Assembly (NCBI RefSeq): GCF_000772945.1
Contig: NZ_JPVN01000009.1
Coordinates: forward strand, 62,001-126,000
Origin: Ureibacillus manganicus DSM 26584
Lineage (GTDB): Bacteria; Bacillota; Bacilli; Bacillales_A; Planococcaceae
Length of the DNA stretch: 64,000 bases
Direction: 5' to 3'
This document shows, piece by piece, positions 9,499-25,247 of the stretch. The notes beneath the pieces were generated by a model. The model made no database searches, was not told the origin of the DNA, and was given only the letters and a program-made list of their open reading frames with translations. Within the stretch, counting starts at the first letter, position 1. Every line of letters begins with the position of its first letter. The position numbers were made by a program, and so were the translations under genes.

Positions 9499-10401
9499 TT
9501 AAAACTTGTAGTTAACACCACATAAGTTCTCCGATACTTGCCATAAATTATGGGCAACATTTTTATCATACATTTTTTTTAACGTACTCAATTCGGATGG
9601 TGTGTTACTTTTATTTTTTGATGGACCAATAAATTCGCCACCTAATAAAGAACTACTAGTCGCGGCATACAAGACTGTAAGGGGGAATTTATGTTTCTCT
9701 TTATCTTTTACTTCATCATTAGATGTTGACTTTGAAGATTTTACTTTGCTACGTGCAGAATCAACTTTTTTACTATCTGTTGGGGTTTGGCAACATACAC
9801 TAATAGTTTGGATGTTATATTCTTTAAATTTTTCATCTAAATGTTTTGCAAATAGCAAATTAGCAAGTTTACTTTGAGTGTAAAATTTATCTGGTTGATA
9901 ATTTTTGGAACCTTTAAAATGACCAAAAGACAATTTTGTTTTACCTGAGAGTTTGTCTCCTATAGTTATCACTCGTGAATTTGGTGTAATCTTAAGTAAA
10001 TCAAGTAATAACCCTGTTAAAGCAAAGTGACCTAAAAAATTCACTCCAAAATGAGACTCAAATCCTTCCTTTGTCTTTCTTTGTTGCACTGAATGAATAC
10101 TTTCATTAAGTATCAAAATGGATAACGTTCGATAATTGGTCTTATATTCCTTCGCAAATTCATGGATAGATTCTAATTCATTTAAATCTAGGTACATAAC
10201 ATCTACTTTTGCATCTGGAAAAACTGAAAGAATTTTTTCTTGTATTGATTTTCCTTTATGAAAATCAGAAACCGCAAGAATAACTGTTGCACCATTTTCT
10301 GCAAATGCTAGTGAAGTTTCATAACCAATTCCTTTATGTGCCCCTGTAATAACGACTGTTTTCCCAGATTGTTGAGTCATGTCTTCTTTAGTCCAAGACA
10401 A
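9499..10401 (-). CDS. Divergent short-chain dehydrogenase/reductase-like protein
   Basis: About 300 residues with a classical SDR Rossmann fold. The NAD(P) motif TGAHKGIG and the catalytic YTQSK (YxxxK) are present. Two usual signatures are altered: the NNAG stretch reads LNES, and the catalytic-Ser strand reads VITIGDKLSG, so the canonical SS/S position is not obvious. A Lys/Ser-rich low-complexity insert (SARSKVKSSKSTS) precedes the C-terminus. It resembles retinol-dehydrogenase/WWOX-like bacterial SDRs. Start: a longer GTG at 10410 overlaps the Shine-Dalgarno AAGGAG, whereas TTG at 10401 sits eight bases after it, so TTG is preferred. Activity is uncertain. Confidence 0.75.
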   Translation of the reverse strand: MSWTKEDMTQQSGKTVVITGAHKGIGYETSLAFAENGATVILAVSDFHKGKSIQEKILSVFPDAKVDVMYLDLNELESIHEFAKEYKTNYRTLSILILNESIHSVQQRKTKEGFESHFGVNFLGHFALTGLLLDLLKITPNSRVITIGDKLSGKTKLSFGHFKGSKNYQPDKFYTQSKLANLLFAKHLDEKFKEYNIQTISVCCQTPTDSKKVDSARSKVKSSKSTSNDEVKDKEKHKFPLTVLYAATSSSLLGGEFIGPSKNKSNTPSELSTLKKMYDKNVAHNLWQVSENLCGVNYKF

Positions 10402-12036: not shown

Positions 12037-16954
<4,918 letters not shown>

Positions 16955-18121: not shown

Positions 18122-19666
18122 TTAGTGTGAAACATCTTGTACTGAAATACCAGTTTGAGCTTTTACTTCAACTTCACGGTATTTAGCTTCATCCACTTCT
18201 TTAGAAAGTAATGTTCCAATAACTCCACCTAAGAATCCAAGTGGTACAGAAATAATTGCTGGGTTAGTTAAGAACACTAATGGATCACCAACAAAGATTG
18301 CTTTACCAGCAACTGGATTCCAAACGTTTGGAGAAAGTGCTACTAGGACTAACGCTGAGATTAAACCTGTTAAAGTAGCAGTAACTGCACCATTTGCATT
18401 GAAACGCTTCCAATAGATTGTATAAATAATAACAGGTAAGTTTGCAGAAGCAGCAATACAGAACGCTAATGATACTAAGAATGCAACGTTTAATGTTTGA
18501 GCTCCTAAAGCTAATAGAATCGAAACTACAGAAATAATTAATGATCCTACACGAGCAGCAACCACTTGCTCTTTTTCAGAAATTTTGCCTTTTTTAATAA
18601 TTTGGCCATAAATATCATGTGATAATGCAGATGCACCTGAAAGTACTAAACCTGCTACAACCGCTAAGATTGTTGCGAATGCAACCGCAGATACGAATGA
18701 GAATAATAAGTCTCCACCAAGTGCTTCAGCTAGAAGTGGGGCAGCCATATTACCTGCAGGGTTTGCAGCAACAATTTCAGCTGAACCTACAAACGCAGCA
18801 GCTCCGAATCCTAAGAAAATTGTTAATACGTAGAATAAACCTACGATCCAAGTTGCCCAAATAACTGAAGAACGAGCTGTTTTTGCGTCTTTTACAGTGA
18901 AGAAACGCATTAAAATGTGTGGAAGACCAGCTGTTCCTAGTACTAAAGCAAGTAACATGGAAATTGTATCAATTCCGTTAGAATATTTTAAACCTGGGTT
19001 TAAATATGCTTGTCCATGCTCAGTCACAGTAGTCATTGTTTCAAACATAAATAAGATATTAAAGTTAAATTTCGCTAATACAAGGATTGAAATAATAATT
19101 GTACCGAACATTAAAAGAACGGCTTTAATAATTTGTACCCATGATGTAGCTGTCATACCACCGAATAATACGTAGATTGTCATCATAACCCCTACGATTA
19201 AAACAGAAACCCAGTATTCAAGACCGAATAATAATTGAATAAGTGCGCCTGCACCAACAAGTTGTGCAATCATGTAAAATAATACGATAACTATTGAACT
19301 TAGAGCAGCAGCTCCGCGAACTTTCGATACATTAAATCGAGCTGTAATCATATCAGCTAAAGTAAATTTACCAAGGTTACGTAATGGTTCAGCAACAATG
19401 TATAATACAACTAAATATGCTGTTAAATAACCTAGAGAGAAGTAGAAACCATCAAATCCAGTTAATGCAACCGCACCCGCGATCCCTAAGAATGACGCTG
19501 CAGATAAATAGTCTCCACCAATAGCTAGTCCGTTTTGCCAGCCTTTTAGACCTCCACCTGCTGTATAAAAATCCGTTGCAGTGCTCGTTCTTTTTGATGC
19601 CCACCAAGTAATGTATAAAGTAATACCCACAATTCCTAAGAACATTGTAATCGCTATTGGACTCAT
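18122..19666 (-). CDS. actP: Sodium:solute symporter, cation/acetate symporter type
   Basis: Solute:sodium symporter family protein of 514 residues with about 13 membrane segments. Early ITWWASKRTSTATDFYTAGGG and GLAIGGDYLSAASFLGIAG motifs are those of ActP/YwcA-type carboxylate importers (acetate, pyruvate or related short-chain acids). The ATG overlaps the stop of the DUF485 gene and is preceded by GGAGGTGC. The pair DUF485-symporter is the usual arrangement. Exact substrate is inferred from family only. Confidence 0.9.
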   Translation of the reverse strand: MSPIAITMFLGIVGITLYITWWASKRTSTATDFYTAGGGLKGWQNGLAIGGDYLSAASFLGIAGAVALTGFDGFYFSLGYLTAYLVVLYIVAEPLRNLGKFTLADMITARFNVSKVRGAAALSSIVIVLFYMIAQLVGAGALIQLLFGLEYWVSVLIVGVMMTIYVLFGGMTATSWVQIIKAVLLMFGTIIISILVLAKFNFNILFMFETMTTVTEHGQAYLNPGLKYSNGIDTISMLLALVLGTAGLPHILMRFFTVKDAKTARSSVIWATWIVGLFYVLTIFLGFGAAAFVGSAEIVAANPAGNMAAPLLAEALGGDLLFSFVSAVAFATILAVVAGLVLSGASALSHDIYGQIIKKGKISEKEQVVAARVGSLIISVVSILLALGAQTLNVAFLVSLAFCIAASANLPVIIYTIYWKRFNANGAVTATLTGLISALVLVALSPNVWNPVAGKAIFVGDPLVFLTNPAIISVPLGFLGGVIGTLLSKEVDEAKYREVEVKAQTGISVQDVSH

Positions 19667-19986
19667 TTACGAGCACCTCCTTCATATTCACTAATTACAT
19701 CTGCCGCATCCTTATCAAAGCCGGTAGCTTTAGATACGTAGAAGTGGGCAAGACCCCATACCATTATGAATAATCCAGCAGAGTATAGCCAAACCCATGT
19801 AATTTCACCAATTGCTTTTTGGTGTAGTAAGTTTGTGTAGGAAGTTAAAACAGGTAATAGCATATAAACTGTAAAGAAGATTACCGCTACTGTCCAAAGA
19901 AATTTATTTTTCTTTTTTGTTAGCTTCTTAAACGATTCCAATTCGGCAATTTTGTCATAATCGATCACTTTTTGTTCTTTCGCCAT
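19663..19986 (-). CDS. DUF485 membrane protein, symporter partner
   Basis: A 107-residue protein with two membrane helices (about residues 32-52 and 65-85), matching the DUF485 (YjcH/YwcB) family that almost always precedes an ActP-type symporter. Start: ATG at 19986 gives Met-Ala-Lys and lies six bases after GGGGGT; an earlier ATG at 19992 abuts that site. It is likely an accessory subunit of the carrier, but the molecular role is not established. Confidence 0.87.
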   Translation of the reverse strand: MAKEQKVIDYDKIAELESFKKLTKKKNKFLWTVAVIFFTVYMLLPVLTSYTNLLHQKAIGEITWVWLYSAGLFIMVWGLAHFYVSKATGFDKDAADVISEYEGGARK

Positions 19987-20590
19987 GAACATACCCCCAA
20001 TTTTGAATAAATTTGCTGCTTTATGTTTGTAAAATTCTAGTTAATAGACTTTACAATTTCCATTTTATTTACTTGTTCACAAAATTGCAATAGTTTTTAA
20101 GAAAATAAATTTAAAAAATATATTTAAAAATGAGTTTTTAAGAGAATTATAGGATATAAACGATAATATTTAGTCATTCAAACAAGGGAAAGTCAGTATT
20201 TACGCTATGTACGAGGTAGAAAAATGAAGCATAATTAAGTATTGACTTAGAAGAAAATAGCTCACAAGTTAAAGAAAATCCTAAAATTTTATTTTTGTGA
20301 AAATGTAATTAAGGGAATAAGTATTATATTTTGATATAGAACAAAAGGAAAAAATTCATTGAAATTGGAAATAATAAAAGTTACAGTGACAAGTTGTAAT
20401 TAACATAAAAGTTCAAAACTTATCGGAATTTGTTATAATTTTAAATTTATCATTGATCCAATAATAAATTAATAAAAACTAGATTATTGGACTAAATAAT
20501 CGGTTCCGTCTCAATATTAAGAGTATTCTTATTGCATGAGATTTAACTTTTGATAATTTATATTATGTCAACTAGAAAAATTTAAAGTTA
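19987..20590. other. 600-base AT-rich gap without genes
   Basis: No open frame with a usable start and RBS on either strand. It must contain the promoter of the DUF485-symporter operon near 20000-20110. An imperfectly understood inverted repeat TCCAATAAT...ATTATTGGA lies at 20457-20491. Base composition is poorer in G+C than the flanking genes. Confidence 0.5.
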
Positions 20591-20627
20591 AAGGGAATGA
20601 AATTAGTTATGATTTTCATTCCCTTTT
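20591..20627 (-). terminator. Hairpin at 3' end of LAGLIDADG gene
   Basis: AAGGGAATGAAA pairs with TTTCATTCCCTT; the stem overlaps the last codons of the gene. On the minus strand the hairpin is followed by T-rich sequence. Confidence 0.7.
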
Positions 20628-21769
20628 AAATATTGGTTCATGCCATATTCGATTATTTCATTTAACTTCATGTTATTTGCGTTTTTGTAAAGTTTCATTC
20701 TTTCTACTAATTCTTTGTCAAATGTAGTTCGAAATTCTACTCGATCTTTTGGTTTCATTTGTTCACTTTTAATTTTGATACTTGTATTGATTAATTGATT
20801 AATAATTGGTTCTATTAAATAATTAATTTTCGTATTATTTGCATTTGCTACATCTCTTAATTCGTTTATAAGTGTATTACTAACATACGTTTTAATTGAT
20901 TTTCTATTGTTATTAACATGAATGATTTCATTATTTTCTATTATCCATGCTTTGACTTTCCGTTTATCATCAGCGATAAATGGATCCTCAGAATGTTGAG
21001 ATAAATATAATCTTTTGTAGATAATAAAATTGTCATATATACTTACATTCTTATAAATAATATTTGAAAGATAGATTACCTTATTTTTACCAGCAATGAC
21101 AACTCTATAAATTTTTGTTTCATGCTCACTTATAAAGCTTCTAATTTTCGGATTTAAATTCCAATTACTAAAAACTTTTAATAATCCTTGAGCAAAACCA
21201 TAACTTGCGGTTGTTATGATAACGTAATATCCATGTTTATCAACGTTTCCATCCCCATCAATCACCCCTCTTATAAACGAGGGCAAAAATTCATCTGGAA
21301 CACATGGAAATGGTAATGACAATGATTTATTATTTGTTATCCCTAAAGCCTCTAAATCTTTCTTAATCTCTCGAGAATTGATTAATAATGTTGGCGTAGT
21401 TCTAGTTTTAGCGGATACTGCTAAGACAAAATCTGCATCCATTAGTTTAGCAATTACTTTTAATATTCTTTTATCTTTTTGAGAAAATGTAATTGAGTGA
21501 ACAGATTTATTTACAGTTCCATCTGTTACAAATAATCCTAAAACCCAAGCCATATCGTGAGACCAAACTTTAAAGAAATCTTCGTTTACCTTATGTTTTC
21601 TAGGTTGACCTGAAGATTGCTCTCGAATTGCCTTTATACCGTGTTTATTTCTTATATAGCTTACTCCAGCAGGTGTAATTCCTACCTTTTCGGCAATATC
21701 TTTCACTGCCATACCACTTAAGTACATTTCTATGATCATTTCATCAGTTATATCTTTTTTTCTAGCCAT
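20603..21769 (-). CDS. Free-standing LAGLIDADG homing-endonuclease-like protein with HTH and two RHH-like segments
   Basis: A 388-residue DNA-binding protein. Residues about 5-46 form a helix-turn-helix (IIEMYLSGMAVKDIAEKVG, ITPAGVSYIRNKHGI). Residues about 70-260 carry two LAGLIDADG-type motifs, VLGLFVTDGTV (76-86) and FIRGVIDGDGN (166-176), with the key acidic residues D83 and D173 kept, so a single-chain nuclease core is plausible. The C-terminus holds two ribbon-helix-helix-like segments (about 289-328 and 343-381) sharing the pattern NANN-K-N--IE---NQ, which suggests an internal duplication. Start: ATG at 21769, nine bases after AAGGAG. It sits alone in AT-rich sequence, not inside an intron or intein. 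Whether it cuts DNA or acts as a regulator is unknown. Confidence 0.85.
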   Translation of the reverse strand: MARKKDITDEMIIEMYLSGMAVKDIAEKVGITPAGVSYIRNKHGIKAIREQSSGQPRKHKVNEDFFKVWSHDMAWVLGLFVTDGTVNKSVHSITFSQKDKRILKVIAKLMDADFVLAVSAKTRTTPTLLINSREIKKDLEALGITNNKSLSLPFPCVPDEFLPSFIRGVIDGDGNVDKHGYYVIITTASYGFAQGLLKVFSNWNLNPKIRSFISEHETKIYRVVIAGKNKVIYLSNIIYKNVSIYDNFIIYKRLYLSQHSEDPFIADDKRKVKAWIIENNEIIHVNNNRKSIKTYVSNTLINELRDVANANNTKINYLIEPIINQLINTSIKIKSEQMKPKDRVEFRTTFDKELVERMKLYKNANNMKLNEIIEYGMNQYLKGNENHN

Positions 21770-22050
21770 ATACAACTGCTCCTTAATTAAATAATTATTT
21801 AATAGAGAAATGGAAAATATATGTTAATCCCATTATAAGAACACCTGTTCCTTTTATCAAATATTATGTTTTATTTTTTACATGATATATCGATTTTTAA
21901 AATTAAATTAACGCATATTTATACAAATATCTACAATAATATTACATTTTCGTCAACACGGTTTACATAAATTCTAATATCATGTATTGTTTTAATAACA
22001 TTTGGAGATATATTTATTTTTGGTATTTCAAGTTATTTTGTATATTTATT
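21770..22050. other. AT-rich spacer upstream of LAGLIDADG gene
   Basis: About 280 bases, very AT-rich. I see no gene with an RBS; a short hydrophobic plus-strand frame near 21972-22069 has no start codon and was rejected. Confidence 0.45.
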
Positions 22051-22086
22051 TAAAAATAAAAAGCATTAACCCTAATAGATTAACGC
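22050..22086 (-). terminator. Rho-independent terminator after DUF4181-like gene
   Basis: On the minus strand GCGTTAA pairs with TTAATGC, followed by TTTTTATTTTT. Confidence 0.75.
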
Positions 22087-22106
22087 CCGCGCAATTCTAT
22101 AAAAAA

Positions 22107-22544
22107 TTAAATTAGTCCAAAAAAGTTATTCATAATTAGTACAAATAATAATAACAACAACACTACAAAAAATCCTAATTGAATCAATGTAGAAATATAA
22201 ACTTTTTTATTTTCTACGTATTTCCACTCCATAAATGCTTGTAATAAATCAACTATTACAATAAAGACAATCAATATATTCCACGTTTCTAAAAACCATA
22301 ATGTCTCACTAGGCTCTCTATGGATATTCACAAATGTACCTATTACAATAAAGATAATAAATGTTATTCGAATTGCCCATTCAATTTTCTTATGTCGATC
22401 ATTTACATGCTGATATGAAAAGAGGCTTTTCTTTTTAACACCTAACCACCTACTCACGACTTCGTTAATAATGATGATCAAAATTAAAAAACTAGCTATC
22501 GAAATAATCAGTACCAACAAAAAATTATTACCCATCCCATACAT
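22107..22544 (-). CDS. DUF4181-like small membrane protein
   Basis: A 145-residue protein with four hydrophobic segments (about 5-28, 53-72, 82-100, 120-142). Segment order and the motif INEVVSRWLGVKKKSLFSYQHVNDRHKK resemble the Bacillales DUF4181 family, whose function is unknown. Start: ATG at 22544 follows AAAGAGGTGA; the longer frame reaching 22628 runs into the upstream nucleotidyltransferase gene and lacks an RBS. It ends with its own terminator and lies 37 bases after the nucleotidyltransferase stop, so the two may be cotranscribed. Confidence 0.75.
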   Translation of the reverse strand: MYGMGNNFLLVLIISIASFLILIIIINEVVSRWLGVKKKSLFSYQHVNDRHKKIEWAIRITFIIFIVIGTFVNIHREPSETLWFLETWNILIVFIVIVDLLQAFMEWKYVENKKVYISTLIQLGFFVVLLLLLFVLIMNNFFGLI

Positions 22545-22581
22545 TCTATTCTCACCTCTTTTAAAGATTGAAAAATAGACA

Positions 22582-23301
22582 CTACTCTTCCTTCCCAATT
22601 GAAAAACCATCAAATAACCGACCACCATAAGGTTTTAATACTTCATCAGCTAATTGAGTAATTGGATTCTTGTCACCTATTTTGTAGAAAGTATCAAACG
22701 CTTCAACAAAATCATTTGCAAACTCTTCATTATAATCCCTTAAAGTTCGATATACCCATTTAGAAGCACCAATCCACTTACGATTCGTTCTTAATACAAA
22801 CTCACTAAGTATTTCAGCAAGAGTATTTGCAATAAATAGTTCCTCCGCTCGAATGGAACACCCTATAAAATCATTCAATACATCCGTAATAAAATAACGT
22901 TTTAACTGGATAGTTTCCTCTGACCATTCTTCTGGACCGCGCTTTAACAAATCACTTGCCTCATTTTTAATGATTTGAACAAATCCCTCATCTTTAAGAA
23001 CAATTCCTTCTGAAATCATCCTTGGCAATGATGGCCGTGCTCTTTTTGCATCCATTTCAAAATATTGCTTATAACTAGTTAAGTTATGTACAAAGGCCTC
23101 TATAGCCCACCCATAGCATAGAAGTGATTCTCGATAGGATCCTTTTAGATTGTTATCAAAAATGACAATATCTAAATCAGACGTGTTTGTTGCTTCACCG
23201 CGCACAACACTTCCAGCTAATAATGCACCTTGACAATTTGGATAATGCTCCTTAGTAAATCGATGTGCCGCATCGATTGCTGACAATCTAAAGTTATTCA
23301 A
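22582..23301 (-). CDS. Nucleotidyltransferase-fold protein
   Basis: A 239-residue protein with the polymerase-beta-type nucleotidyltransferase motif GSVVRGEATNTSDLDIVIF at about residues 31-49, which contains the GS and the D-x-D metal ligands. The remainder is helical. Close relatives are annotated as nucleotidyltransferase-domain proteins, some as aminoglycoside adenylyltransferase-like, but substrate is unknown. Start: TTG at 23301, nine bases after GGGGAG. No obvious partner (such as HEPN) that would suggest a MNT/HEPN toxin pair, although the C-terminal helical region could itself be HEPN-like; that is speculation. Confidence 0.82.
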   Translation of the reverse strand: MNNFRLSAIDAAHRFTKEHYPNCQGALLAGSVVRGEATNTSDLDIVIFDNNLKGSYRESLLCYGWAIEAFVHNLTSYKQYFEMDAKRARPSLPRMISEGIVLKDEGFVQIIKNEASDLLKRGPEEWSEETIQLKRYFITDVLNDFIGCSIRAEELFIANTLAEILSEFVLRTNRKWIGASKWVYRTLRDYNEEFANDFVEAFDTFYKIGDKNPITQLADEVLKPYGGRLFDGFSIGKEE

Positions 23302-23460
23302 CTTCAGTCACTCCCCTATATTTATGAATTAAATATATTCCTTTTGAACTGATTCATCCAATAATTGTAATATATTATTTAATTTAACAATAGTAAGCTA
23401 TAATACATATAGAAAATGTGCAGCTAAAATATTCAATTTTATTATATTTAGGGGGTTCTT

Positions 23461-24426
23461 ATGGATATAAAAGGTGTGAAAATAACAAAGGAAATTTTAG
23501 ATCATTGGATTCAAAAAGTTACTCCAATGTATGACCTGTTTTTCTTTACAGATGAGAACAAGTCGTTAATTGATCATTTTGACTCGAATATACTAGTAAT
23601 GACCGCGAAGGATTTTTATCAAGATGATTACTTTAATGATTTTGATACATTTAATAGCTATCAATCCTGGCAAATAAGTAAAGAAGTAACTTACGTATGC
23701 ATCGCACACCCAGAAAGTATCAGCAGATTAGAAACAAATGTTCGCAACAGAGTATTTCGTATTCAAAAAGAGGTTAATAGTGGACTAGTTTACAATTGGA
23801 ATATTGTTTCTAATCATATTGAAGATATACAATCCCCTTTACAGAAGGAGTCTATTAACCAGTTACTCTCATTATATAGATTCGATTTTGAGACTAATCA
23901 ATATCTTATCCTACAAAATTCATTATGGATCAAGTTAAATCTTGAATTGAAATACGCCTTTTTAAGCTACATTGCAACTAATTTTGTGCATGAAGTTGAC
24001 TTAAACAGTGATCGAAAATTAAGTTTCATAAAAGAATATCCGCATATTGCGCCATTCTTTAATACATTCTCCGACAATAACGGTGCAAACTGCTTAGCTG
24101 CAACACTTGCAGCTTCAAGTGGAAGTAATTCAGATACAAAGTGGCTAATTACAAAATGGGTAAGCCAGTATAGTTTCTTATATAATTTAAAATCTAATGG
24201 TTATACTTTAAAATCCGAAACGCTCATTGAACTATCTCCTAAAGATGTTCTTGTCTGGAGAGATGGCAATGATAAAGTACTACATGCCACTTACTACTTA
24301 GGAGATGGCTATTTTTTCAATAAACATGGTCAGAGTTTTATTAATCCATGGCAAATTATCACATTGGACAATTTACTAGAAATTTGGGGAAAAGATCGAA
24401 TTAATGTTTATAGACAAATGTATTAA
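23461..24426 (+). CDS. Unknown protein with possible papain-like C-terminal domain
   Basis: A 321-residue cytoplasmic protein without recognised family. The N-terminal 200 residues are mixed and rich in aromatic and acidic residues. The C-terminal 115 residues carry NGANCLAATLAAS (Cys211), KDVLVWRDG and VLHATYYLGDGYFFNKHGQ (His275, His289), an arrangement like the Cys-His pair of NlpC/P60 or CHAP papain-like hydrolases, where Cys starts a helix and His follows on a strand. No signal peptide is seen, so an intracellular role is implied. ATG preceded by GGGGG. It is transcribed alone and ends in a strong terminator. Confidence 0.75.
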   Translation: MDIKGVKITKEILDHWIQKVTPMYDLFFFTDENKSLIDHFDSNILVMTAKDFYQDDYFNDFDTFNSYQSWQISKEVTYVCIAHPESISRLETNVRNRVFRIQKEVNSGLVYNWNIVSNHIEDIQSPLQKESINQLLSLYRFDFETNQYLILQNSLWIKLNLELKYAFLSYIATNFVHEVDLNSDRKLSFIKEYPHIAPFFNTFSDNNGANCLAATLAASSGSNSDTKWLITKWVSQYSFLYNLKSNGYTLKSETLIELSPKDVLVWRDGNDKVLHATYYLGDGYFFNKHGQSFINPWQIITLDNLLEIWGKDRINVYRQMY

Positions 24427-24443
24427 ATAGTAGATGATTTAAT

Positions 24444-24477
24444 AAAACACGCTAGTATTGTTTCCTAGCGTGTTTTA
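24444..24477. terminator. Bidirectional terminator after unknown protein and methyltransferase
   Basis: AAAACACGCTAG pairs perfectly with CTAGCGTGTTTT. It overlaps the stop region of the converging methyltransferase gene. Confidence 0.88.
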
Positions 24478-25247
24478 GATTTAGTTTTCTTACATACATA
24501 AATCATTTCATAGCTATCATTCGTTAATGGAGTTTTGTTCCAATCACTATATAGATGTAGGATTTTAAAACCATTATTGAACAAAATTCTCTCCATTTCT
24601 TTCGGAAATACATATCTCAAACGTATGTTCGTTTTCGTCTCTTTAATAAGATCACCATTTAAATTTCTGTATTTCCTAATGGTAGTATAATGTTGGATTT
24701 GGTTTAATGAATCATAATTACTTAATGTAAAAACATCGACTGTAATTTGAGTATCATTATCAATGTAAGATCGCCAATATTCTTCTGTAGGTGGCTGTAG
24801 TAGTTCCTCCGCGCTTGGAAACCTTGTTCCAAATATAAATACCCCTTCATCATCTAGATGTTTATATACAGAGGAAATGAATCTATCTTGTGCTTCATTC
24901 GTTAAGAAATGTTGAAATGAATTACCTACTGAGTAAATGAGTTTACTTATTGTATTTATGTTCATATTTGTACAATCTTGTTCAATCCACTCAACTTGCA
25001 AAAGGTTATTAGATGATTTACTTTTTGCTTCCTCTAACATCCCTTTATGAATGTCTACGCCAATTAGCTTGTAACCTTCTTTGGCCAAAGGAATTGTTAT
25101 TCTACCCGTACCACAGGCCACATCGATTATTGGTCCTCCCATTTTGGATGCCCATTCTAAAAGAAATGGTAACTCTGCCAGATATGATTCATTTTCTTTA
25201 TCGTACAATATAGGATCGTTATATTCTTCTGAATTATCTAATACCAT
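24465..25247 (-). CDS. Class I SAM-dependent methyltransferase
   Basis: A 260-residue protein with a Rossmann-like SAM-binding fold. Motif I IIDVACGTGR is at about residues 40-49, motif II LIGVDIHKGML at about 58-68, and WIEQDC follows. This is the UbiE/methyltransf_25 type. ATG start with GGGGGG upstream. The acceptor substrate cannot be inferred. The 3' end lies within the shared terminator. Confidence 0.85.
   Translation of the reverse strand: MVLDNSEEYNDPILYDKENESYLAELPFLLEWASKMGGPIIDVACGTGRITIPLAKEGYKLIGVDIHKGMLEEAKSKSSNNLLQVEWIEQDCTNMNINTISKLIYSVGNSFQHFLTNEAQDRFISSVYKHLDDEGVFIFGTRFPSAEELLQPPTEEYWRSYIDNDTQITVDVFTLSNYDSLNQIQHYTTIRKYRNLNGDLIKETKTNIRLRYVFPKEMERILFNNGFKILHLYSDWNKTPLTNDSYEMIYVCKKTKSKTR

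Follow-up and report, generated by a model that had tools for sequence, protein, structure and literature searches.

A probable resident LAGLIDADG endonuclease gene of Ureibacillus manganicus with a predicted ribbon-helix-helix module and a putative SOS-type promoter

Nucleases and DNA-binding proteins comparable to the locus

Homing endonucleases are generally regarded as selfish genes whose expression is constitutive or timed by a phage. Among those most like the protein described here are the phage and plasmid endonucleases of PHROG 4645, which likewise place an N-terminal helix-turn-helix (HTH) before a LAGLIDADG core with two motifs. The gene under study lies in a 64,000-nucleotide stretch of Ureibacillus manganicus DSM 26584 (contig NZ_JPVN01000009.1, positions 62,001 to 126,000), here called the window. 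The PHROG 4645 relatives inspected mostly adjoin DNA polymerase genes and have no SOS-type box upstream (0 of 6), whereas the window gene is chromosomal, stands without an Rfam intron and carries a tandem ribbon-helix-helix (RHH) module, here RHH2. Searches with the nuclease retrieved 64 phage and plasmid records, all of them distant relatives, with none of the 57 in the phage set and none of the 7 in the plasmid set covering 80% of the query, and two scans of IMG/VR viral contigs found no relative at the sensitivity used. Five of the six phage and plasmid relatives inspected are located beside or between DNA polymerase genes and one is near a group I intron. On a Jeotgalibacillus plasmid (L193, 514-877), a group I intron (RF00028, E 4e-14) sits beside an HTH-LAGLIDADG gene between DNA polymerase genes.

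Regulated and free-standing homing nucleases are both on record, I-TevI being self-regulated and the T4 seg and mob enzymes free-standing; these are, however, phage GIY-YIG or HNH nucleases that depend on phage promoters or their own operator, and no host LexA box appears to be described for them (PMC2988022). Host LexA boxes of the same type as the one described below occur at mobile-element genes in SPbeta and GIL01 (PMC8270828, PMC4551915). Unlike the window gene, the LexA-boxed genes of these two elements are phage genes. To our knowledge, none of the genes listed in the SPbeta box table encodes a LAGLIDADG nuclease. WhiA (DUF199) also combines a LAGLIDADG fold with an HTH, and its structure (3hyi) is a fold match to the window protein. 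WhiA has lost nuclease function, and regulators of its type have lost the LAGLIDADG catalytic acids, whereas the catalytic aspartates are invariant among the aligned intact relatives of the window protein.

For the C-terminal module, the nearest comparison is with single-chain tandem RHH proteins such as F-plasmid TraY, DndE and AvtR, which share with it two beta-alpha-alpha repeats per chain (TM up to 0.67 to F relaxosome chains). F TraY is described as a monomer that holds the whole RHH dimer fold (PMC12117103), and DndE as two RHH domains (PMC10853773). The F relaxosome chains are nevertheless only 10-12% identical to the window RHH2, and the RHH pair described here, unlike them, adjoins or is fused to a nuclease. 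Among the matches listed in the open literature, which leaves most subscription journals outside, there was no paper on a LexA-controlled LAGLIDADG nuclease and none on a fusion of a homing endonuclease with an RHH protein.

Architecture of the gene and its relatives

The features of the gene, all on the minus strand, are as follows.

20603-21769, minus: HTH-LAGLIDADG-RHH2 fusion gene, 388 aa, ATG at 21769, stop codon at 20603-20605
21629-21769, minus: N-terminal HTH, residues 1-47 (three helices, 9-42)
21035-21574, minus: LAGLIDADG core, residues 66-245
21521-21523, minus: codon of motif 1 aspartate D83
21251-21253, minus: codon of motif 2 aspartate D173
20612-20923, minus: RHH2 module, predicted to be single-chain, residues 283-386 (first repeat about 289-328, second about 343-385)
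20590-20626, minus: terminator-like hairpin spanning the stop codon (-15.4 kcal/mol, z -3.8)

An earlier reading of this DNA made from the letters alone (the sequence-only reading) had described an open reading frame of this extent with an N-terminal HTH, a two-motif LAGLIDADG core retaining D83 and D173, and two RHH-like C-terminal tails. We confirmed the reading frame, for which an alternative TTG start exists at 21775, two codons upstream of the ATG. Its core is recognized by Pfam LAGLIDADG_3 in two stretches (E 1.1e-16) and, together with the HTH, by the PHROG 4645 profile "endonuclease" over residues 6-245 (E 5.9e-35). D83 and D173 are invariant in all 33 intact relatives aligned, as are the flanking residues in T82-D83-G84 and D171-G172-D173-G174. 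The HTH itself retrieved only weak profile matches (HTH_7 and others, below the cut-off), and its assignment draws on the PHROG 4645 span and on the predicted structure. In the C-terminus, PHROG 3180 "Arc-like repressor" matched two stretches (best 287-329, E 5.7e-9) and PDB entry 2kel matched residues 335-383 (E 0.0012). The two repeats align to each other with a score of 61, against a maximum of 43 in 500 shuffles, and both contain the pattern NANN-K-N--IE---NQ that had been noticed previously.

The predicted structures bear out the HTH and RHH2, though not the details of the core. The full-length AlphaFold2 model, built from 10 sequences, has a mean pLDDT of 59.7 and a poor core, and shows the three HTH helices at residues 9-42 (pLDDT blocks 83-87) and, at 289-385, a beta-alpha-alpha unit occurring twice (pLDDT blocks about 84-90, linker about 62). 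The core was predicted with low confidence (many blocks below 50), with the element order alpha-b-b-alpha-b-b-alpha found twice; when this full-length model was searched with Foldseek, the first seven matches were nonetheless LAGLIDADG enzymes, with WhiA (3hyi) the eighth. A separate model of the C-terminal 119 aa (7 sequences) again gave two beta-alpha-alpha repeats, with mean pLDDT 82.7 and pTM 0.73. The best Foldseek matches of RHH2 were chains of the F relaxosome (TM 0.54-0.67, probability 0.84-1.00, but weak E-values of 0.015 to 0.92), which we read as TraY from the description of that protein in PMC12117103; a permuted single-chain Arc was also among the best. The two repeats are thus predicted to form one single-chain RHH pair resembling F-plasmid TraY.

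This changes the count of modules. The repeats and their shared pattern are real, as the sequence-only reading proposed, but they are predicted to make one RHH2 unit and not two tails, so the core is accompanied by two extra DNA-binding modules and not three. That reading also took free-standing homing endonucleases to consist normally of the core only; since PHROG 4645 covers residues 6-245, HTH plus core is an ordinary phage pairing, with the RHH pair as the addition. No intron was found, as expected from that reading: in the surrounding 4.2 kb (window 19106-23269) no Rfam family scored up to its gathering threshold. Nor does any larger host ORF surround the gene as would an intein host.

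Matches to the 388-aa protein, the own genome included in each case, were found in 20 of 61 genomes drawn as relatives, 129 of 261 of the family and 24 of 398 drawn from the class. We tabulated 41 nuclease-bearing and 25 RHH-only loci, which are the loci fetched and not all matches of the 129 genomes; G046 and G009, distant nucleases with no partner, were left out of the 41, and all these loci are related by descent, making the counts non-independent. In many relatives the nuclease is about 260 aa long, and its gene is overlapped, or followed at a distance of tens of bases, by a separate tandem-RHH gene of ~124 aa whose product mostly starts with M-W-K; elsewhere nuclease and RHH2 share one ORF, like the window gene. 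The nuclease is intact at 33 of the 41 loci and broken at 8, and 5 of these 8 keep an open RHH2 ORF of at least 105 aa. Of the intact loci, 12 were scored as fused and 20 as separate, and G006, whose fusion the RHH query missed, is fused by alignment. The window RHH2 corresponds to a partner protein whose gene, in many relatives, lies immediately downstream of the nuclease gene. RHH2 also occurs with no nuclease match, at 25 loci, of which G016 is a fragment.

That the window gene might have left a separate RHH remnant behind it was considered and rejected, none being present in about 600 bp downstream at E 0.05. G002, scored as separate, has both forms: behind its fused nuclease-RHH2 gene lies another RHH2 gene that stands alone and is very divergent (L024, 8205-9694). 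In the near-identical genomes G236 and G237 (L169, L177), one has a single fused ORF, and the other has a stop close to where nuclease and RHH2 join; this is a recent switch of form. At least five fused/split changes are needed on the nuclease tree, while an AU test did not reject one clade for ten fused rows (p 0.40). Some branches of the RHH tree are very long (3.9 for the stand-alone G002, 2.56 for the fused G000, the window genome, and 2.42 for the fused G017, against a median of 0.17), so placements in it are unsafe. In two nucleases of other families, G429 and G446, a C-terminal HTH (HTH_28, HTH_23) stands in place of RHH2, which suggests that the C-terminal DNA-binding modules may be exchangeable among these nucleases. 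Both proteins (L203, 3055-4008 and L205, 3065-4018) have an HTH at either end of the LAGLIDADG core, and their genes a full-score SOS-type box and -10 element.

An SOS-type box in the nuclease promoter

The most informative feature of the locus, an SOS-type promoter box, was missed by the sequence-only reading. It lies upstream of the gene within a promoter with the following elements.

21855-21860, minus: -35-like element TTGATA, 17-bp spacer to the -10
21839-21850, minus: LexA/DinR-type box GAACAGGTGTTC, inside the spacer
21832-21837, minus: -10 element TATAAT, one base after the box

The box is a core match to the Bacillota SOS box CGAAC(n)4GTTCG (PMC4551915), with the outer C and G of the 14-mer unmatched, as they also are in most boxes of the table in PMC8270828, where the Bacillus LexA/DinR consensus is given as CGAACATATGTTCG (Table 1). 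Comparable boxes are present in the same genome at lexA (CGAACTTATGTTTG and CGAATGTTTGTTCG), recA (CGAAAATATGTTCG) and a Y-family polymerase (GAACAAATGTTC). Among the described examples, LexA binds the yorB box aGAACActTGTTCc with a Kd of 12 nM and the yolC promoter, which has two boxes and contains aGAACAaAcGTTCt, with a Kd of 3.9 nM (PMC8270828); the yorB and yolC 12-mers also occur at the G018 and Rossellomorea loci. Elsewhere in G000 (contig C11 near 176320, L096), a Y-family DNA polymerase (impB/mucB/samB) is separated from a divergent 121-aa ORF by a stretch with two LexA-type boxes about 100 bp apart, at 1321-1332 and 1429-1440. The window gene has, in addition, a perfect 18-bp palindrome ATTAAATAATTATTTAAT (window 21786-21803) downstream of its promoter and ahead of its start codon, which could be an operator or a chance occurrence in AT-rich DNA.

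To compare promoters, we scored GAACN4GTTY followed 0-3 bases on by TATAAT, with a maximum of 14. A score of at least 13 was reached at 29 of the 41 nuclease loci (at least 12 at 36 of 41), at 3 of the 543 regions upstream of other genes at these loci, and at 5 of the 25 RHH-only loci. The motif was first seen on 15 of the 41 loci, 14 of which pass, making the 15 of 26 that reach 13 among the remaining loci the fairer figure. Four further cassettes (G130, G254, G192 and G230) all reach 13 or 14. The 12 nuclease loci below 13 are G242, G253, G250 and the copy in strain JMAK1 (10-11), seven loci with a score of 12, and G004, whose 10 is not a proper score because its 5' end and start are lost. 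G294, a cassette in another family, scores 10, counted from an extrapolated start.

The box is also found at nucleases with no RHH partner. The RHH-less nucleases of other families, G429, G446, G580 and G612, all have the full score of 14, and a search of the G429 family, which matched 7 of 80 genomes, yielded five new loci (G684-G687 and G689), each scoring 14, 31-36% identical to the window nuclease and having no RHH match in its flanks of about 1.5 kb each. Of 15 relatives that lack a partner, nine score 9-11 (G162, G342, G539, G212, G229b, G228b, G009, G046 and G329), partner-less G390 has the 12-mer with no TATAAT (score 11), and in partner-less G230b the box occurs only at -270. Genome-wide, exact GAACN4GTTC is not enriched, with 30 sites as compared to 35 for the reversed control. 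RHH2 as the owner of the promoter box was rejected, with scores below 13 at 20 of the 25 RHH-only loci and the box present at RHH-less nucleases; the box goes with the nuclease rather than with RHH2. One RHH-only locus, G018 (L036, near 9636-9753), keeps an SOS-type box with TATAAT 117 bp upstream of its RHH gene, and a short stretch between the two resembles, by eye, the C-terminus of the nuclease; this locus looks like a nuclease deletion.

Inheritance of the locus and possible readings

Two neighbouring genes serve as markers of position.

19663-19992, minus: DUF485 protein, which marks the position of the locus and was present in 24 of the 25 genus genomes searched
14519-16954, plus: topoisomerase IV subunit A, which marks the broader neighbourhood and which we take to be parC from its protein sequence, as with the parC/parE names used for relatives

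The gene lies, as previously described, in a low-GC gap beside the DUF485/symporter pair, with GC of 28.6% in the gene, 32.4% in the window and 21-22% in the adjoining intergenic stretches. The genus genomes are those of Ureibacillus, with loci that include U. acetophenoni and U. galli. Of the 24 Ureibacillus genomes with DUF485, 12 have the cassette, its remains or its RHH gene upstream of the DUF485/symporter pair and no more than a few genes away from it, a patchy presence; in G008 the cassette is on a contig other than that of the pair, and G010 and G023 are available as short contigs only. Many loci in other genera of the family are near parC/parE or share upstream genes with such loci, and the shared neighbours lead us to infer that the loci near the symporter pair and those near parC/parE represent one ancestral neighbourhood with rearrangements. 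Copies outside the family (Rossellomorea, Siminovitchia, Peribacillus and strain JMAK1) have neither the symporter pair nor parC within 8 kb.

An empty-site comparison showing ordinary vertical descent had been named in the sequence-only reading as evidence against a selfish insert, and the results fall partly on that side. In G006, the nearest relative of G000, the gene is in the same place, with a nuclease dS of 1.24 where near neighbours have 0.46-1.53, but across the genus its presence is patchy. Nuclease dS is also like that of the neighbours in the pairs G259/G219, G250/G252 and G236/G237, so in four sister pairs no recent gain was caught, and these values suggest that the window gene may have been inherited vertically since its nearest species. 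In G255/G256 the nuclease dS of 1.07 is above that of the neighbours (0.54-0.88), yet an AU test did not reject these nucleases as sisters (p 0.27). Nuclease and ParC distances are weakly correlated (14 genomes, rho 0.19, a value reached by 56 of 999 permutations). As for constraint, nuclease dN/dS is 0.10-0.31 in 19 of the 20 least diverged pairs listed, several with near-saturated dS; the near-identical pair G236/G237 has 1.18, from few changes. RHH-only genes have dN/dS of 0.03-0.07 in 7 of the 10 pairs listed and 0.10-0.21 in the other three.

We consider it probable that the window gene encodes a resident, SOS-inducible, site-specific LAGLIDADG endonuclease that descends from homing endonucleases and has an RHH module as an accessory part. 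LexA bound to the box in the promoter spacer would keep the gene off; upon DNA damage, RecA would trigger LexA self-cleavage and the nuclease would be expressed. The two-motif core, whose activity is suggested by fold and catalytic residues, would then cut a long DNA site, to which it would be guided by the N-terminal HTH and, in the window protein, by the TraY/Arc-type single-chain RHH pair. With RHH2 fused, the choice of DNA site, or a damping of the nuclease, may be carried in cis. The nuclease is related to the homing endonucleases in or beside phage and plasmid DNA polymerase genes, and appears to behave as a chromosomal gene, vertical between sister species and often decaying. A "re-purposed or self-regulated selfish element", as the locus had been called, is partly correct: DNA-binding modules are indeed fused to an apparently intact core and the nearest phage and plasmid relatives are homing-endonuclease-like, but the promoter favours a LexA/SOS-type box over self-regulation, and the RHH part, a single module, corresponds to a neighbouring gene of the relatives.

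A somewhat unlikely alternative is that the gene is simply a selfish, free-standing homing endonuclease that spreads by intronless homing, cutting those alleles of its neighbourhood that lack the cassette, while the SOS box does no more than time expression to recombination-proficient cells. The patchy presence near a single symporter pair in 12 of 24 genomes would be expected of it, as would the 8 of 41 loci with a broken nuclease (5 with RHH2 open), the RHH-only loci with a promoter left behind (in G018 even with the nuclease-like stretch), the copies outside the family away from both markers, the relatives in DNA polymerase genes and the weak correlation with ParC. Against it stands the synonymous age of the nuclease, equal to that of its neighbours in the four sister pairs, and even the higher dS of G255/G256 leaves the two nucleases as possible sisters. 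Patchiness and decay favour cutting that serves the gene, and vertical inheritance and constraint favour cutting that serves the cell. If RHH2 instead restrained the nuclease in a toxin-antitoxin-like pair and stayed on as an orphan antidote after nuclease loss, the constrained RHH2 genes standing alone at 25 loci would find an explanation, and RHH proteins do act as antitoxins in known systems. We regard such a pair as improbable, since open nuclease ORFs occur with no convincing RHH2 in G390 (57% identity) and in G429, G446, G580 and G612 (32-35%), the latter four having no RHH match and G390 a single one (E 0.008 among 61 queries), more than 1 kb away on the other strand; moreover, the RHH gene follows the nuclease, and fusion in several lineages would tie antidote to toxin one to one.

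Two further readings would make the protein a regulator of some kind. In the first, the protein represses its own gene, as I-TevI does, an established precedent (PMC2988022); the box would then be an operator to which its HTH or RHH2 binds and would only look like a LexA box. Its position in the promoter is what an autorepressor's operator would have, and its distribution is compatible with an operator of the nuclease's own HTH. The box is, however, present at nucleases of 31-36% identity with no RHH match, scores below 13 at 20 of the 25 RHH-only loci, and equals boxes that LexA binds in vitro (PMC8270828). Host LexA is preferred over RHH2 autorepression because the box goes with the nuclease and not with RHH2, and we give autorepression by either module a low probability. 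Lower still is that of a WhiA-like regulator in which the LAGLIDADG core now acts as a DNA-binding scaffold with no cleavage; the several DNA-binding units in one chain and the match to WhiA (3hyi) would suit such a protein, but both catalytic aspartates and the flanking motif residues are invariant in 33 of 33 intact copies. With the aspartates kept, a damage-timed nuclease, homing-type or partly domesticated, is more likely than a pure regulator, and together the data suggest that a cutter which was once selfish has come under the control of the cell's response to DNA damage.

Of more interest than the number of modules is the SOS-type promoter, which recurs in several families. We tentatively propose, with less confidence than for the window gene itself, that at least four families of the class Bacilli (f1, f14, f58 and f59) may have chromosomal LAGLIDADG nucleases that have left the intron lifestyle and become LexA-repressed SOS effectors making a programmed cut on DNA damage, with exchangeable C-terminal modules (RHH2 separate, RHH2 fused or, as in G429 and G446, a second HTH). 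If so, these would be an undescribed class. A LexA-type switch on LAGLIDADG nucleases of different bacterial families would raise the question of whether the SOS response has taken over site-specific cutters or selfish cutters fire when the recombination machinery is up. The neighbours of box-bearing nucleases in other families pointed to no obvious common pathway among the 7 proteins scanned, which are an MFS protein, a UvrD-like helicase (twice), a DJ-1/PfpI protein (twice), a sulphur transporter and a GDPD protein. The split, fused, decayed and partner-only loci provide a natural series for a nuclease gaining a new DNA-binding module.

Beside the cassette in the window lies a group of accessory genes (22107-25247), for which clustering gave no counterpart at the corresponding position in G006, the nearest relative. 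They encode a DUF4181 protein, a nucleotidyltransferase, a 321-aa family-less protein and a SAM methyltransferase.
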